64,000 nt of DNA, taken from assembly GCF_001552075.1 (NCBI RefSeq), contig NZ_BCQM01000006.1, positions 62,001-126,000 on the forward strand, read 5' to 3'. A model generated the notes under the pieces. That model had not been told where the DNA came from. It searched no databases and saw only the letters and a program-made list of their open reading frames with translations. Below are positions 1-22,225 of the stretch, piece by piece (positions within the stretch are counted from its first letter, which is position 1; every line of letters starts with the position of its first letter). Both the position numbers and the translations under genes were made by a program. This DNA is from Arthrobacter luteolus NBRC 107841. Its GTDB lineage: Bacteria; Actinomycetota; Actinomycetes; Actinomycetales; Micrococcaceae.

Positions 1-1131
1 CAGGATTTCCAGGACCGTGGTTTTTCCACTGCCGCTGGGTCCGGTCAGGGCGGCGATGCTGCCCTGGGGCACCGTGAGGTCCAGATCCTGAAGCACGGGT
101 TCAGCACGTCCCGGGTAGCGGACGGTGAGTCCCCGGACGTTTAGCCCGGGGCCGGCGGCGTTCCCCGCCGCGGCCGCGGGCGGGGTCAGCGGTTTGGTTT
201 CGGGAACGTCCAGAACGGCGTTGGTCCGCTTCAGGGCTTCCAGCCCGTCTTCGCTGGCGTGATGCGCGGTCCCGAGATCGCGCAGCGGCTGGTAGCACTC
301 GGGCGCCAGGATCAGTGCCAGCAGTCCCATTTCAAGCGGCATGTCCCCGTGGACCAGGCGGACGCCGATGAAAACGGCCACCACGGCTACGGAGATGGTG
401 GCAATGAGTTCCAGTGCCAGGGAAGACAGGAAGGCGACCCGCAGGGTCTCCAGTGTGGTTTTGCGGTACCGGTCTGCGACGTCGCGGAGCGCGCGGGTCT
501 GGGCGTTGGCGCGGCCCAGACCCACGAGCACCGGCAGACCCTTGGCCAGTTCCAGCATGTTGTCGGAGAGACGGTTCAAGGCGTCGATTGCCTTGGCGGT
601 CTTATCCCCGGTGTGCAGGCCGATCAGCACCATAAAAACAGGTACCAGCGGAACGGTCAGCACAATGACGACGGCGCTGATCCAGTCGGCGGCCAGGATG
701 CGTGCGCCCACCAGCAGCGGCACCACGGCGCAGGTAACCAGCGCCGGCAGGTACTTGGCGTAGTAGTTGTCCAGTCCGTCCAGGCCGCGGGTCAGGAGCA
801 CGCTGAGCGCACCGCTGCCCATCCCGGGAACCGTTCCGCCGTCGTCCAGCACCCGGTCGGTGAGCCGGCTGCGCAGTTCGTCCTTCACACCGGCGGCCGC
901 CCGCTGGGCCACCGTTTCCTGCGCCCACATGGCCAGGGAGCGCAGCAGCGCACCGGACACACCGGTCGCCGCGACATAGCCCCAGTCCGGGCCGCCGGCA
1001 GCCAGCCCGGCAATGCCAGCGGCGATGCCGGTGGCGAGCAGGACCAGTCCCACGGCTTTCACAGCTGCGAGCAGGCCCAGCAGGTAAAGGGCCCGGCGGC
1101 TGGTGGCGCTGACCGGAAGGACGGGTTTCAC
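1..1131 (-). CDS. cydD: CydD, thiol reductant ABC exporter subunit (partial, C-terminus outside window)
   Basis: This is the N-terminal 377 codons of an ABC exporter half-transporter; the rest lies left of base 1. CydDC exports cysteine or glutathione and is needed to assemble cytochrome bd. The translation has a membrane domain with the segment LAPECYQPLRDLGTAHHAS, typical of CydD, and then the ATPase domain with Walker A TGPSGSGKTT close to the window edge. I chose the GTG at 1131, which overlaps the cydB stop as GTGA, so the two genes are translationally coupled. Gene order cydA-cydB-cydD is standard. The reading was made by translating the complement by eye. Identity is certain at family level; the CydD rather than CydC assignment rests on position after cydB. 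Confidence 0.93.
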   Translation of the reverse strand, partial: MKPVLPVSATSRRALYLLGLLAAVKAVGLVLLATGIAAGIAGLAAGGPDWGYVAATGVSGALLRSLAMWAQETVAQRAAAGVKDELRSRLTDRVLDDGGTVPGMGSGALSVLLTRGLDGLDNYYAKYLPALVTCAVVPLLVGARILAADWISAVVIVLTVPLVPVFMVLIGLHTGDKTAKAIDALNRLSDNMLELAKGLPVLVGLGRANAQTRALRDVADRYRKTTLETLRVAFLSSLALELIATISVAVVAVFIGVRLVHGDMPLEMGLLALILAPECYQPLRDLGTAHHASEDGLEALKRTNAVLDVPETKPLTPPAAAAGNAAGPGLNVRGLTVRYPGRAEPVLQDLDLTVPQGSIAALTGPSGSGKTTVLEIL

Positions 1132-2144
1132 TGGGCGTTGATCCGGTGGACCGCCGGGATGGAGTCAGCCGAGACGCGCTTGCGGAACACCCAGTAGGTC
1201 CAGCCCTGGTAAAGAAGCACGATCGGCAGCCCGAACAGGGAGACCCAGCTCATGACCTGGAGGGTGTAGGGGCTGGAGGACGCGTTCTCGACGGTCAGGT
1301 TCCAGGCGGAATCCAGCGTGGACGGGAGGACCACCGGGTACATCGCCGCGAAGATTGATACGGCACCGGCCAGCAGGAACAGACCCAGGAACGTGAAGGT
1401 CAGGCCTTCCTTCTCAAGCTGCGCCATGCGCCAGGCGATAAGGACTGCCAGGACCGCGACGGCCAGCGGAATCATCGAGAGGAAGTCGCCGCTCAGCAGC
1501 TGCACACCGATTGCCCAGGCTGCCAGGGGCAGGATGCCCAGGGGCAGCCAGCGGACCAGGGCGCGCCGGGCACGGACCCGGATTTCGCCGTCGGTCTTGA
1601 GCATCAGGAAGGCGCAGGCATGAATCAGGCAGAAGCCGACGACGGCGAGGCCGCCCAGCACGGCCCACGGGGTCAGCCAGGCGAAGGCTCCGCCCACCCG
1701 GTCACCATTCTCATTCAGCGGCAGGCCAGTGGAGGTCAGGGCCAGGGCGGCGCCGACGCCGAAGGCGCTGACCAGGGAGCCCAGGGACATCGCCCAGTCC
1801 CAGCCGCCGCGCCAGCGGTCCGAATCCCGCTTGCCGCGGTATTCGATGGACACGGCACGGAAGATCAGGCCGAGCAGCACCAGGACCAGCGGGACGTAGA
1901 GCGCGGAGAACAGGGCTGCGTACCAGAACGGGAAGGCCGCGAACGTCATGGCGCCAACGGTGATCAGCCACACTTCGTTTCCGTCCCAGACCGGTCCGAT
2001 GGTGTTCAGCAGGACACGGCGTTCGCGTTCGTTGCGGGCAAAGAGCTTCATGAGCATGCCCACGCCCAGGTCGAAGCCTTCGAGGAAGAGGTAGCCGACC
2101 CACAGGAAGGCGATAACGATGAACCAGATTGTTGGAAGCGTCAT
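1128..2144 (-). CDS. cydB: Cytochrome bd ubiquinol oxidase subunit II
   Basis: CydB is the second integral membrane subunit of the bd-type terminal oxidase, which oxidises quinol and reduces oxygen with high affinity without pumping protons. The 338-residue protein has the family length and opens with the characteristic IWFIVIAFLWVGYLFLEGFD, followed by the conserved GPVWDGNEVWLI and a series of hydrophobic helices. The ATG at 2144 is preceded by GGAG at a good distance. It lies 18 nt downstream of the cydA stop and overlaps cydD by 4 nt, so cydA-cydB-cydD is one operon. Regulation is expected from the palindromes upstream of cydA. Confidence 0.97.
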   Translation of the reverse strand: MTLPTIWFIVIAFLWVGYLFLEGFDLGVGMLMKLFARNERERRVLLNTIGPVWDGNEVWLITVGAMTFAAFPFWYAALFSALYVPLVLVLLGLIFRAVSIEYRGKRDSDRWRGGWDWAMSLGSLVSAFGVGAALALTSTGLPLNENGDRVGGAFAWLTPWAVLGGLAVVGFCLIHACAFLMLKTDGEIRVRARRALVRWLPLGILPLAAWAIGVQLLSGDFLSMIPLAVAVLAVLIAWRMAQLEKEGLTFTFLGLFLLAGAVSIFAAMYPVVLPSTLDSAWNLTVENASSSPYTLQVMSWVSLFGLPIVLLYQGWTYWVFRKRVSADSIPAVHRINAQ

Positions 2145-2162: not shown

Positions 2163-3764
2163 CTAGTAGGCGAAATCAAGGACGTCATCGGACTTCCGTC
2201 CGCCCGGTTTGTCCGGAGTATCCTCCGAGTCCGGACCGTCGCCGGAGCCGCCGGCGTGGACCAGCTCAGGCATCGCTGAGGGAACACCGCCCCGGACGTA
2301 TTTGAAGAGCAGCCGCACCTCCACGACCAGCAGCGCCAGATAGACCACCGTGAAGGAGATGACCGAGAACATCAGCTCGGCACGGCTCACGCCCGGCGAG
2401 ACGGCGGCCGCGGTGAACATAAACACGTTGTCGATGCCGCTGAAACTGGGGTTGGGCACAACCACGAAGGGCTGGCGGCCCATTTCGGTGAAGATCCAGC
2501 CGGCACTGTTGGCGCCGAAGGGTGCAAGGATTCCGAACACGGCCAGGCGCATCAGCCACTTGGACTGCGGAACGGTTCCCTTGCGGGTGACCCAGAGGGC
2601 GACGGCGGCGGCCGCAGCCGCGATGGCACCGAAGCCGATCATGATCCGGAATCCCCAGTACGTCACGGCCATCACGGGGAGGTAGTTAATTTCAGCCCCG
2701 GCCTGCTCGCCGTACATCGGATCATCCGGCAGATGGGTGCCGTACTTCTCCTGGTACTCCGGGATCAGGGTGTTGACGCCGTCCACGGGAGTGTCGAAGT
2801 CTCCGTTGGCCAGGAAGGACAGCAGGCCCGGGACCTCGATCAGGGTCTTGACGTCTTCGCAGTTCTTCGCGCCGACGTCACCGACGGACAGGACGGAGAA
2901 CGCGGTTCCGTTATGGCAGGCGGCTTCAGCTGCAGCCATCTTCATGGGCTGCTGCTCGAACATCAGCTTGCCCTGCAGATCACCGGTGATCGCCGTGCCG
3001 GCAAACGCGACGACGGCGACGGCGGCACCAACCCGGAGGGCTTTGATCCAGACCGCATGGTCCGTCTTGTCGCGTCCGATGGCAGCGTTCTCGCCAACGA
3101 CAACGCGGCCGTTCTCATCGACAGTGTCGATTCCGTCGCGGCGCCGCTTCCACAGGTGGTACCAGGAGATGCCCAGCAGGAACCCGCCGGCGACTGCGAA
3201 GGCACCGGTAATGGTGTGCGGGAAGGCGACCAGCAGCGTGTTGTTGGTCAGGACTGCCCAGATGTCAGTCATCACGGCACGGCCGTCAACCAGTTCAACA
3301 CCAACCGGATGCTGCATCCAGGAGTTGGCCGCGAGGATGAAGTACGCGGACAGGGCGGAGGCGCCGGTGGCCAGCCAGATCGTGGCCAGGTGCAGCTTCT
3401 TGGGCAGTCTTTGCCAGCCAAAGATCCACAGCCCCAGGAACACCGATTCGGTGAAGAAGGCCAGCAGGGACTCAAGCGCCAGCGGGGCCCCGAAGACGTC
3501 GCCGACAAACCGGCTGTACTCGCTCCAGGCCATGCCGAACTGGAATTCCTGCACCAGGCCGGTGGCCACACCCATGATGAAGTTGATCAGGAAGAGTTTT
3601 CCCCAGAACTTGGTGAGGCGGAGGTACTCCTCCTTGCCGGTGCGGACCCAGGCGGTCTGCAGCGAGGCCACCACCAGGCCCAGGCCGATGGTCAGCGGAA
3701 CCATCAGGAAGTGATAAACGGTCGTGATACCGAATTGCCAGCGGGCAATCTCCAGTGCTTCCAC
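2163..3764 (-). CDS. cydA: Cytochrome bd ubiquinol oxidase subunit I
   Basis: CydA carries hemes b558, b595 and d and the quinol site of the bd oxidase in the cytoplasmic membrane. The 533-residue protein begins MEALEIARWQFGITTVYHF, with His18 as the expected heme ligand. FPHTITGAF holds the second His ligand and WIFTEMGRQPFVV the Met/Arg-Gln-Pro signature of the family. Start is GTG 3764, with AAGGAA seven bases upstream. The promoter region carries three TTCTAC-N5-GTAGAA palindromes shared with the divergent BlaI-type repressor. The oxidase is usually induced at low oxygen or under respiratory stress; the repression model here is an inference from the operator layout. Confidence 0.98.
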   Translation of the reverse strand: MEALEIARWQFGITTVYHFLMVPLTIGLGLVVASLQTAWVRTGKEEYLRLTKFWGKLFLINFIMGVATGLVQEFQFGMAWSEYSRFVGDVFGAPLALESLLAFFTESVFLGLWIFGWQRLPKKLHLATIWLATGASALSAYFILAANSWMQHPVGVELVDGRAVMTDIWAVLTNNTLLVAFPHTITGAFAVAGGFLLGISWYHLWKRRRDGIDTVDENGRVVVGENAAIGRDKTDHAVWIKALRVGAAVAVVAFAGTAITGDLQGKLMFEQQPMKMAAAEAACHNGTAFSVLSVGDVGAKNCEDVKTLIEVPGLLSFLANGDFDTPVDGVNTLIPEYQEKYGTHLPDDPMYGEQAGAEINYLPVMAVTYWGFRIMIGFGAIAAAAAAVALWVTRKGTVPQSKWLMRLAVFGILAPFGANSAGWIFTEMGRQPFVVVPNPSFSGIDNVFMFTAAAVSPGVSRAELMFSVISFTVVYLALLVVEVRLLFKYVRGGVPSAMPELVHAGGSGDGPDSEDTPDKPGGRKSDDVLDFAY

Positions 3765-3790
3765 GCGAGGATTCCTTCAGTTGAGGCAAG

Positions 3791-3807
3791 TTCTACAAGA
3801 CGTAGAA
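3791..3807. promoter_or_regulatory. Putative BlaI-type operator, copy 1 (cydA side)
   Basis: TTCTACAAGACGTAGAA, a perfect 6-bp inverted repeat around a 5-bp spacer, 26 bases upstream of the cydA start codon. BlaI/MecI/CopY repressors bind TAC/GTA dyads, and a member of that family is encoded just to the right. Assignment is by motif and position. Confidence 0.7.
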
Positions 3808-3815
3808 CAGTGTTC

Positions 3816-3832
3816 TTCTACAGATCGTAGAA
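3816..3832. promoter_or_regulatory. Putative BlaI-type operator, copy 2 (central)
   Basis: TTCTACAGATCGTAGAA, the same 6-5-6 palindrome with a different spacer. Its centre is 25 bp from that of copy 1 and 33 bp from that of copy 3. It sits between the cydA and repressor transcription units, so it could act on both. Confidence 0.7.
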
Positions 3833-3848
3833 CACTTCGGAGACTTAT

Positions 3849-3865
3849 TTCTACAAGACGTAGAG
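3849..3865. promoter_or_regulatory. Putative BlaI-type operator, copy 3 (repressor side)
   Basis: TTCTACAAGACGTAGAG, with one mismatch in the outermost base of the right arm and the same AAGAC spacer as copy 1. It is the copy nearest the repressor gene and could mediate autoregulation. Confidence 0.65.
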
Positions 3866-3993
3866 ACTAGTCCTGAAAAACGGTATTGTTAACCCCCTCG
3901 TCACAACTATCTGGGGCTGGCCTCGATGGACATCCAGCCCGGGGACACCCCCGGCCGGAACCAAGGACGGACCCAACGAAGAAGGAACGGAAC

Positions 3994-4365
3994 ATGGCGA
4001 CTCTCGGAGAGCTTGAGCGGGCAATGATGGACTTGCTGTGGGAGTCCCCCGAAGCAGCCACCGCGAATGAACTGCGGGAACAGCTCGCACAGAATGATGC
4101 CGGCCGCGCCGAAGCCAAGGGCCTCGCCGTCACCACGGTGCTGACCGTTCTGTCCCGGCTCGAGAAAAAGGGCCTGGTGGCCCGCGAACGGGACATCCGG
4201 CCGCACCGCTACCGCGCTGTGACGTCGCGCGCGGAGCACACTGCCGAACTCATGCACGAGGTGCTGGGGTCCGCGAACGATCGTGAGGCCGTCCTGGCCC
4301 GGTTTGTCGGCTCCGTTTCCGCCACCGAAGCCCAGACTCTGCGCAAGCTGCTGGAAGGCGCCTAG
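3994..4365 (+). CDS. BlaI/MecI/CopY family transcriptional repressor
   Basis: A 123-residue winged-helix repressor. The recognition helix region is TTVLTVLSRLEKKGLVARE, matching the BlaI/MecI pattern, followed by a wing and a C-terminal dimerisation helix. The open frame extends upstream to 3886, but the ATG at 3994 has AAGGA at 3982-3986 and starts directly at the family N-terminus (MATLGELERAMMDLLW), so that start is preferred. It is divergent from cydABD and is followed 21 bases later by an M56 peptidase, the classical BlaI-BlaR1 arrangement. Known BlaI proteins respond to beta-lactam signalling through cleavage; no beta-lactamase of the BlaC type is adjacent here. Control of cytochrome bd is therefore the likelier role. 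Confidence 0.9.
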   Translation: MATLGELERAMMDLLWESPEAATANELREQLAQNDAGRAEAKGLAVTTVLTVLSRLEKKGLVARERDIRPHRYRAVTSRAEHTAELMHEVLGSANDREAVLARFVGSVSATEAQTLRKLLEGA

Positions 4366-4386: not shown

Positions 4387-5355
4387 ATGTTCTGGGCCTC
4401 TTATTTCCTCGCCGGGCTGGCGATCATCCTCGCCTGGCCCGTGCCCGTAGTGCTTTCCCGCGCCAAATGGCCGGCGCGCTCCCCCTTCACCGCCATGGTG
4501 CTGTGGCAGGCGATCGCCCTTGCGGGCGGACTCTCCATGATCGGCGCGATGCTGACCTGGGGTCTTGAACCCATTGGCGACAATCTGGCGCAGGGCATCG
4601 CCGCACTCTGGGACATCCTGGTCCAGCGCCGGCCGGCCGAGACGCTGGGCCTGGTCCATGTTTTCGCCATCAGCGCGGCCCTGCTGCTCTCAGCCCACCT
4701 CGTCTTCACGCTGCTGCTGACGTTTTACCGGATCCAGACCGCCCGGCGGCGCCACCGGGACATGCTCAACCTGCTCAGTTCTCCTTCGCTGGACAAACCA
4801 GCAACCCTGGTTATCCCGCATCCGTCACCGGTGGCGTACTGCCTGCCGGGTGGTGCGCAGTCCGTGACGGTGCTGTCCGACGGGCTGATGGACATGCTCA
4901 CCGAGTCGGAACTGTCCGCCGTGATGACGCATGAAAAGGCGCATCTGAGCCAGCGCCACCACCTGCTGCTGTGGGCGTTTGCCGCGTGGCGGGCTGCGCT
5001 TCCCTGGCTTCCGACGTCCCAGCTGGCACAGCGGTCCGTCAACGAGCTGATCGAGATGCTCGCCGACGACGAAGCCCTGAAGAAGGTGGACCGGCAGACC
5101 CTCATCCGGGCCGTGGCCATCGTGGGATCGGGGTCCGGGTCAGAGTCCGCAGCCGGCGTCCCGGCTTCCGGCACCGCTGCGGTCAGCGGCGGCGGCAGCG
5201 CTGACGCCGGCGTCGGAATCGCCGGAAGGCTGAGCCGGCTGCTCACGCCGCAGCCTCCGCTGCCGCAGTGGGTCAGTGTGCTGATCCAGGCGTGCTCCGT
5301 GCTGCTCCTGGCGGTCCCTACCGTGCTCCTGTTTGCGCCCGGCCTGATTCACTGA
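4387..5355 (+). CDS. M56 family membrane metallopeptidase (BlaR1-like without sensor domain)
   Basis: A 322-residue membrane zinc protease of the BlaR1/MecR1 peptidase family. It has N-terminal hydrophobic helices (residues about 5-25, 38-62, 88-115), the zinc motif HEKAH at residues 182-186, a likely third ligand in NELIEML near 220-223, and a C-terminal helix near residues 295-318. It ends after that helix and has no penicillin-binding sensor domain, which in BlaR1 lies outside the membrane. It follows the BlaI-type repressor by 21 bases, so the natural inference is that it inactivates the repressor by cleavage in response to an unknown signal. A low-complexity Gly/Ser/Ala stretch at about 247-270 may be a flexible loop. 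Confidence 0.88.
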   Translation: MFWASYFLAGLAIILAWPVPVVLSRAKWPARSPFTAMVLWQAIALAGGLSMIGAMLTWGLEPIGDNLAQGIAALWDILVQRRPAETLGLVHVFAISAALLLSAHLVFTLLLTFYRIQTARRRHRDMLNLLSSPSLDKPATLVIPHPSPVAYCLPGGAQSVTVLSDGLMDMLTESELSAVMTHEKAHLSQRHHLLLWAFAAWRAALPWLPTSQLAQRSVNELIEMLADDEALKKVDRQTLIRAVAIVGSGSGSESAAGVPASGTAAVSGGGSADAGVGIAGRLSRLLTPQPPLPQWVSVLIQACSVLLLAVPTVLLFAPGLIH

Positions 5356-21808: not shown

Positions 21809-21825
21809 TTCTACCCGTTGTAGAA
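21809..21825. promoter_or_regulatory. Fourth BlaI-type palindrome, upstream of the small membrane protein gene
   Basis: TTCTACCCGTTGTAGAA has the same 6-5-6 arms as the three copies at the cydA/repressor promoter, with a different spacer. The symmetry extends to 11-bp arms with one mismatch (AACTGTTCTAC versus GTAGAATAGTT). Its right arm contains TAGAAT, a possible -10 hexamer, so binding could block transcription. Confidence 0.7.
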
Positions 21826-21877: not shown

Positions 21878-22225
21878 ATGGATTTCCTTCACAGCTTCCT
21901 TGTCTTCCTGCACATTCTTGGCGCTGCCATGGTTGTAGGCATCTGGATCGCACGGATCAAGAACCCGACCGTTATGCCCGGCCAGTTCCACGCCGCTCTG
22001 CTCCAGCTGGTCACCGGCCTGGCGCTGGTCGGACTGAACGAGATGGGCGACGGCGACGTCAACCACCTCAAGATCGGCGTCAAGCTCATCATCACCCTGG
22101 CCATCGCAGTACTCGCGTTCATCGGCCAGCGCAAGTACAAGAAGGACGAGCCGGTATCACGCACCCTGGCGAACAGCGTCGGCATCCTCGCCGTTGTGAA
22201 CATCGCCGTAGCCACCATGTGGTAA
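21878..22225 (+). CDS. Small four-helix membrane protein of unknown function
   Basis: A 115-residue, very hydrophobic protein with four predicted membrane helices (about 4-25, 37-53, 65-84, 96-114). Four histidines lie at or near helix ends: His5, His12 in helix 1, His38 and His63. Such placement occurs in heme, quinone or copper membrane proteins, but no known motif is complete. I do not recognise a characterised family; similar proteins occur in Arthrobacter by memory. Its promoter carries the same palindrome as cydA, so a role with the respiratory chain is a reasonable inference. It has its own terminator and seems monocistronic. Confidence 0.85.
   Translation: MDFLHSFLVFLHILGAAMVVGIWIARIKNPTVMPGQFHAALLQLVTGLALVGLNEMGDGDVNHLKIGVKLIITLAIAVLAFIGQRKYKKDEPVSRTLANSVGILAVVNIAVATMW

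Follow-up and report, generated by a model that had tools for sequence, protein, structure and literature searches.

A BlaI-type repressor and a membrane protease beside the cytochrome bd genes of Arthrobacter luteolus: a predicted respiratory and heme regulon

In Arthrobacter luteolus NBRC 107841, the genes of cytochrome bd are divergent from the genes of a BlaI-type repressor and a membrane protease, proteins of the same kinds as those of the Staphylococcus aureus beta-lactam switch, and the question is what such a pair does beside a terminal oxidase. We analyzed a 64,000-nucleotide stretch of one contig (NZ_BCQM01000006.1, positions 62,001 to 126,000; hereafter the window), and its features are collected in Table 1 together with related sites from the rest of the genome. 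The labels L, G, g and f denote DNA stretches, genomes, genera and families of this analysis.

Table 1 Features of the window and further palindrome-bearing promoters of the A. luteolus genome
Feature	Position	Strand	Remarks
fused cydDC, first part	1..1131	-	1135-aa ORF continuing outside the window; two ABC transporter halves
cydB, cytochrome bd subunit II	1128..2144	-	PF02322, 341.9 bits
cydA, cytochrome bd subunit I	2163..3764	-	PF01654, 508.8 bits
putative operator 1	3791..3807	.	exact palindrome TTCTACAAGACGTAGAA; 27 bp from cydA GTG
putative operator 2	3816..3832	.	exact palindrome; start to start 25 bp from operator 1
putative operator 3	3849..3865	.	one mismatch, ends GTAGAG; nearest to blaI
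blaI repressor	3994..4365	+	123 aa, no cysteine; PF03965, 77.2 bits
BlaI Phe104 codon	4303..4305	+	aligns with Phe102, BlaI/MecI cleavage site
M56/M48-like membrane zinc protease	4387..5355	+	322 aa, no penicillin-binding domain
H182EKAH codons (zinc site)	4930..4944	+	His182, Glu183, His186 invariant in 24/24
E223xxxD227 codons (second zinc-site motif)	5053..5067	+	invariant in 24/24
fourth exact palindrome	21809..21825	.	
115-aa membrane protein	21878..22225	+	53 bp after fourth palindrome; no Pfam or NCBIfam family
hemQ-hemH	L001		palindrome with at most one mismatch
flavohemoglobin	L003		palindrome with at most one mismatch; NCBIfam NO-inducible flavohemoprotein 351 bits, below cut-off 432
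Cg1360-family ATP-synthase-associated protein (atpI) before atpB	L004		palindrome with at most one mismatch
resA-ccdA	L005		palindrome with at most one mismatch
ctaE-qcrC-qcrA, divergent from trpD (by eye)	L007		palindrome with at most one mismatch
sufR and ABC transporter pair (by eye)	L008		palindrome with at most one mismatch
sucC	L009		palindrome with at most one mismatch
small membrane proteins without family: 115 aa, 139 aa, 106 aa	window, L002, L006		palindrome with at most one mismatch

A first reading of this DNA from its letters (the sequence-only reading) had described three palindromes in a 229-bp divergent gap between cydABD and the repressor gene. The gap from the cydA GTG (3764) to the blaI ATG (3994) is indeed 229 bp long and carries three copies of the pattern TTCTAC-N5-GTAGAA, two of them exact and the third with one mismatch. 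The name cydABD holds in part: cydA and cydB are recognized by Pfam, whereas the supposed cydD is only the first part of a longer frame with two ABC halves. The part cut by the window edge scores 398 bits against TIGR02857 CydD, below the cut-off of 435, and CydD and CydC appear to be fused in one 1135-aa protein (window 1-1131; L010:4725-8132). When up to three mismatches were allowed, the pattern was matched 18 times in the window as compared with a shuffle mean of 5.07, and none of 100 shuffles reached 18; with zero or one mismatch, only the three gap palindromes and the fourth exact copy were found. A sigma-70-type scan of 3740-4020 detected no promoter, and a loose -35/-10 scan of 78 loci gave no common promoter position (best 9/78).

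We then searched the whole genome (3.92 Mb), using the reversed pattern as a control and our own simple gene calling for intergenic status. With at most one mismatch there were 13 sites, six of them exact, against seven for the control, and all 13 were intergenic as compared with two of the seven control matches. A search with up to two mismatches showed no excess (77 sites versus 123 in the control) and was dropped, so that only sites with zero or one mismatch were used. Beyond the three at cydA/blaI, the sites fall at ten other promoters. The hemQ site lies 46 bp upstream of the probable ATG (L001:2928), the reference start probably being 42 bp too long. Sites before ctaB (L011) and ctaG (L012) of this genome were excluded for their two mismatches; elsewhere, ctaB in L211 and ctaG in L184 have exact sites before them. 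What the sequence-only reading saw beside cydA is thus the local part of a genome-wide set.

It had also proposed aligning the intergenic region across relatives. Of the 30 best loci in the family, 26 have cydA adjoining blaI. Among the named loci we took the best 80 of 365, which are hence close relatives: the protease gene directly follows blaI in all 80, an HExxH motif is read in the protease of 78, and cydA is divergent from blaI in 78. The operators are kept in every one of these 78 divergent loci, each having at least two exact copies; three are exact in 55, and in seven more the third has one mismatch. The cyd-proximal pair is spaced 23-25 bp in 75 of the 78. One stretch labelled Sporosarcina beigongshangi (L138) has an Arthrobacter-like cydA-blaI-protease locus with a BlaI 79% identical, and this assembly is probably mislabelled or mixed.

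Two genera show what the individual operators may do. In g5 (G004, G035), blaI is away from cydA, with one operator staying at blaI and two at cydA. In g26 (G025, G053), no cydA was found; blaI and the protease are present, blaI has one operator, and the exact sites number five altogether. From these arrangements, the operator pair would serve cyd, the third would serve blaI, and the regulon would exceed cyd. Operator 3 is probably the autoregulatory site of blaI, because a blaI away from cydA retains a single operator; by sequence, then, a dyad operator is found at the repressor's own promoter, both in the gap palindromes and at the relocated blaI.

The sites accompany BlaI also when genomes are compared. 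A BlaI match is present in 108 of 120 Micrococcaceae genomes, in 104 of them a close one (E below 1e-20), and four g12 genomes match weakly (E 1.5e-10 to 6.5e-12). Of the 104 genomes with a close BlaI, 100 carry two or more exact copies of the palindrome (up to 15), as against none of the 16 others, and the reversed control gives 0-3 copies per genome; the 120 genomes are related, and hence these are not independent trials. The exceptions, with a close BlaI yet zero or one exact site, are G044 (1), G090 (0), G061 (1) and G103 (1). Two genera, g6 and g15, have members both with and without BlaI, and the sites come and go with it. A search for cydA covered 25 selected genomes, namely the 12 lacking a BlaI match, the four g12 genomes and nine more; 19 gave a match, of which one, a 28-residue fragment, was left out. 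Whereas cydA has a site with at most one mismatch within 300 bp in 11/11 genomes with BlaI, none of the seven full-length cydA genes of BlaI-less genomes has one, even with up to two mismatches. Each of the four g12 genomes has a single exact palindrome, 103-104 bp upstream of cydA, and blaI-protease elsewhere. In three of these four (L300-L302), the diverged pair, which lies far from cydA, was seen to have genes for a Dyp-type peroxidase and for a PCuAC copper chaperone nearby; the PCuAC gene was confirmed by Pfam in L300. Control of cytochrome bd by the blaI-protease pair, as the sequence-only reading had proposed, is a prediction that these comparisons support well, because pair and sites are present together and lost together, and because cydA keeps its operators where blaI has moved away.

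To describe the regulon in other genera, we used 60 stretches around exact sites from 12 genomes of 11 genera; left out were most genomes' cyd/blaI sites, one contig-edge site of G012 and the sites of G006 and G020. Without the four cyd/blaI stretches (L178, L182, L196, L229), and with L173 holding two, they make 57 promoter regions, and targets were identified in 53 (the other four are L177, L185, L190 and L192). Pfam confirmed 16 of the 57; the others were assigned by tblastn to A. luteolus proteins or by reading. A respiratory and heme set (heme, oxidase, cytochrome c, ATP synthase, SDH, copper delivery, flavohemoglobin) accounts for 33 of the 57: hemQ 10, hemA/hemE 2, flavohemoglobin 5, the resA operon 4, atpI 1, sdhC 1, and oxidase subunits, qcrC, ctaB, SURF1, CtaG and copper delivery together 10. 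The remainder comprises suf/ABC (4), isocitrate lyase (1), lactate dehydrogenase (1), Pyridox_ox_2 (4), universal stress (2), the 115-aa family (3) and the 139-aa family (5). Some assignments are weaker, namely sdhC in L187, which is 243 bp from the site with another gene nearer on the opposite side, L199, which was assigned via a DUF1775 neighbour, and L208 and L214, where the copper gene is second. Such targets suggest that this protease-linked repressor would control respiration and heme genes rather than antibiotic resistance.

Three kinds of target can be placed more exactly. In four genomes from other genera, an exact palindrome adjoins a gene for a Pyridox_ox_2 protein (PF12900; L188:1449-1937, L209:1532-1963, L218:2104-2577, L227:1995-2438). 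The 115-aa protein is also found behind a palindrome in L050, L062, L064, L206, L221 and L230, and relatives of it (45-51% over 64-75 residues) lie behind sites in two other families (L268:1671-2084; L296:2089-2424); it is a candidate for a new respiratory accessory protein. The 139-aa membrane protein (L002:2528-2947), which has no family, recurs as a palindrome target in L172, L180, L202, L203 and L223.

The repressor itself belongs to the BlaI/MecI family, as had been read, its PF03965 score of 77.2 bits being above the cut-off of 22.6, and it is the only PF03965 gene of the genome. It is 99% identical to the BlaI of Arthrobacter pullicola and A. gallicola, and its nearest solved structure is 2g9w, the BlaI of Mycobacterium tuberculosis (E 5.6e-18), followed by MecI and BlaI of S. 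aureus. According to the excerpts available of PMC9834060 (this and the other papers cited here are represented by excerpts), S. aureus BlaI is cleaved between Asn101 and Phe102. Phe104 of the A. luteolus protein pairs with MecI Phe102 and is invariant in 22/22 aligned repressors.

For the protease, labelled M56 in the sequence-only reading, Pfam M56 fails its cut-off (20.7 bits versus 31) and M48 passes (40.7 versus 20.3), but the best fold matches are BlaR1 chains. In a Foldseek search with the protease model (pLDDT 80.1), BlaR1 chains took ranks 1-4 with E values of 0.014-0.075 and low TM-scores of 0.20-0.36, followed by Ste24p and ZMPSTE24; a phmmer search of the protease against the PDB gave no match. 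With the M56 score below its cut-off, the family tie is looser than the label suggests. The protein has four hydrophobic segments, and its HExxH and ExxxD motifs lie between membrane helices, a pattern that PMC9834060, in the part seen, gives as the signature of BlaR1. Pfam found no penicillin-binding domain in its 322 residues, in agreement with the sequence-only reading. Judging from the model, residues 61-88 between the helices and the tail could be its outer part, and nothing else could. Three residues, invariant in 24/24, are candidates for sensing: Cys152 beside the zinc site, and Trp40-Gln41 in the second membrane helix. Cys152 as a redox switch is a lead only, because M48 proteases have a motif similar to that around it.

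Taken together, we think it likely that BlaI represses a respiratory regulon, that the protease cleaves BlaI on a signal and that respiratory capacity then rises. The binding, repression and cleavage that we infer would proceed as follows. Bound to TTCTAC-N5-GTAGAA dyads near start codons, at cydA/blaI and some ten further promoters, the repressor would block transcription of cydA, of its own gene and of the atp operon, ctaE-qcr, cytochrome c maturation, heme synthesis, flavohemoglobin, suf, sucC and the small membrane proteins. The protease, which lacks a penicillin-binding domain but carries the cytosolic zinc site of BlaR1, would receive its signal in the membrane or the cytosol and cut the repressor at or near Phe104. 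The respiratory set would then rise together, cytochrome bd foremost with its two or three operators. The signal is our guess: not beta-lactams, but most likely something that follows when electron transport is impaired, such as the redox or quinone state, NO, or a lack of heme or oxygen. The sequence-only reading had suggested cell-envelope or respiratory stress; of the two, a respiratory signal is favoured because the targets include the alternative oxidase, heme supply, NO removal and Fe-S repair.

The same set of targets could be handled differently. The bd branch and the bcc-aa3 branch, which are regulated oppositely in many bacteria, are both in the set, and this would suit a repressor that at some sites serves as activator or as dual regulator, with the regulon balanced and not switched on as a whole. 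We regard this as rather unlikely, as members of the BlaI family act as repressors and the sites are close to start codons (27-85 bp for the predicted operators at cydA).

A cell-wall switch as in S. aureus, in which the respiratory genes would be incidental and the protease would sense envelope damage via a partner, seems quite unlikely. The identified targets include no beta-lactamase or penicillin-binding protein (10 promoters here and 53 of 57 regions elsewhere, some identified by eye), and the protease is without the domain that would bind penicillin. What speaks for such a switch, apart from the shared kinds of protein, is that in M. tuberculosis BlaI controls blaC and that beta-lactam exposure raises blaR-blaI and cydAB together, as stated in the available part of PMC5473688.

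Several targets are related to copper (CopC in L194 and L208, PCuAC in L214, CtaG in L184), the g12 pair is near a PCuAC gene, and the best NCBIfam match of the repressor is CopY_TcrY, though far below the cut-off. A CopY-like metal sensor, with the repressor reading copper or heme and the protease as an accessory, is nevertheless very unlikely: CopY depends on a cysteine motif at its C-terminus, whereas the 123 residues of this repressor include no cysteine, and the copper genes are a minority that fits oxidase assembly. It is likewise very unlikely that the palindromes belong to another regulator, such as a redox repressor, with blaI as a mere neighbour, since BlaI-family proteins bind TAC/GTA dyads and, the four exceptional genomes with zero or one exact site aside, the sites track BlaI over 120 genomes and inside g6 and g15 and persist at blaI in genomes in which the pair is separate from cyd.

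Regulation of the respiratory set by a cleavable BlaI, the reading we prefer, has its closest known counterpart in M. tuberculosis, whose BlaI (Rv1846c) is paired with a BlaR (Rv1845c) that, like the A. luteolus protease, has no extracellular sensor domain (excerpts of PMC5473688). As far as the accessible text goes, this BlaI binds the cytochrome bd and ATP synthase promoters (PMC5473688, a 2017 paper, citing Sala 2009), it binds and represses at Rv1303, the leader of the atp operon (PMC12565901), and it is named as a regulator of that operon (PMC5874750); the parts seen of PMC8265638 and PMC11561320 add nothing on cyd. The predicted sites here are likewise at both the atp operon and cytochrome bd. 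In A. luteolus, as opposed to M. tuberculosis, the pair is divergent to cyd with two or three operators, and sites are also present at heme, cytochrome c, oxidase, flavohemoglobin and suf genes, with no beta-lactamase among the identified targets. With the BlaR1-BlaI and MecR1-MecI systems of S. aureus, the pair shares the membrane gluzincin with HExxH and ExxxD, the dyad operators, the gene pair and a Phe at the position aligned with the cleavage site, before which the repressor would be cut; it differs in the missing penicillin-binding sensor domain, in its targets and in the residue before Phe104, which is Arg and not Asn. The CopY copper repressors have the same Pfam family and DNA-binding fold, but A. 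luteolus BlaI is free of cysteines and is coupled to a protease. Like Rex, ArcA and ResD, each a single regulator over terminal oxidases and related genes, BlaI would serve as one regulator for such genes, though it is of another protein family, has another operator and would be released by proteolysis, not by a ligand or phosphorylation.

A broader idea, which we put forward tentatively and rate at somewhat below even, is that oxidative phosphorylation in Actinomycetes has a BlaI-M56 pair as its master regulator: a membrane protease with no outer sensor domain would read the respiratory chain from within the membrane and destroy the repressor that holds down cytochrome bd, bcc-aa3, heme synthesis and ATP synthase, and the mycobacterial control of beta-lactamase would have been added later to what had been a respiratory switch. 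The available part of PMC5473688 poses as unanswered how BlaR of mycobacteria, which has no domain for sensing beta-lactams, responds. If the older job of the pair is to watch respiration, that question could be tested in Arthrobacter, which is harmless and where the pair appears wired to cytochrome bd. A proteolytic membrane sensor would also join the known bacterial gauges of respiratory state, cytochrome bd of Arthrobacter and relatives would gain a named regulator, and the conserved operator would let the regulon be read from any genome of the group. A literature search (titles and abstract starts, with subscription journals thinly covered) gave, among the matches listed, no paper on a cyd-linked BlaI-M56 pair and none on a BlaI respiratory regulon outside mycobacteria.

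Beyond Micrococcaceae, a BlaI match is present in 180 of 296 genomes of the class, and among the next-best matches a cydA-like gene is beside blaI in 25 of 27 stretches. A palindrome lies between the two genes in 9/9 stretches of f4, in 14 of the 15 f24 stretches with a cydA-like gene, and in 0/1 of f6; f24 belongs to another order, and its cydA is 27-32% identical. Cytochrome bd was confirmed by Pfam in L233, L237, L250 and L273. In 20 further stretches of f24, Pfam recognized CopC (L260), flavohemoglobin (L265), uroporphyrinogen decarboxylase (L266) and cydA (L273), and L268 holds the relative of the 115-aa protein mentioned above. Counting the pattern over the class was rejected as a general test, as the counts were not above the control in most families, where control matches were as frequent. 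A variant dyad, TACTAC-N5-GTAGTA, occurs in other families: three copies lie between cydA and blaI-protease in L295 (f33), and one lies before cydA in L291 and L292 (f10), before the 115-aa relative in L296 (f23) and before a Rieske protein in L298. In g46 (five genomes, 11 stretches, L280-L290), no respiratory gene was recognised, the genes read by eye being MOSC, glyoxalase and small membrane proteins. There the variant dyad recurs before a gene that by eye is glyoxalase-like and between genes likewise taken for those of MOSC-like and small membrane proteins (L281, L282, L283, L288, L289, L290), and these sites perhaps mark another BlaI-family regulon.
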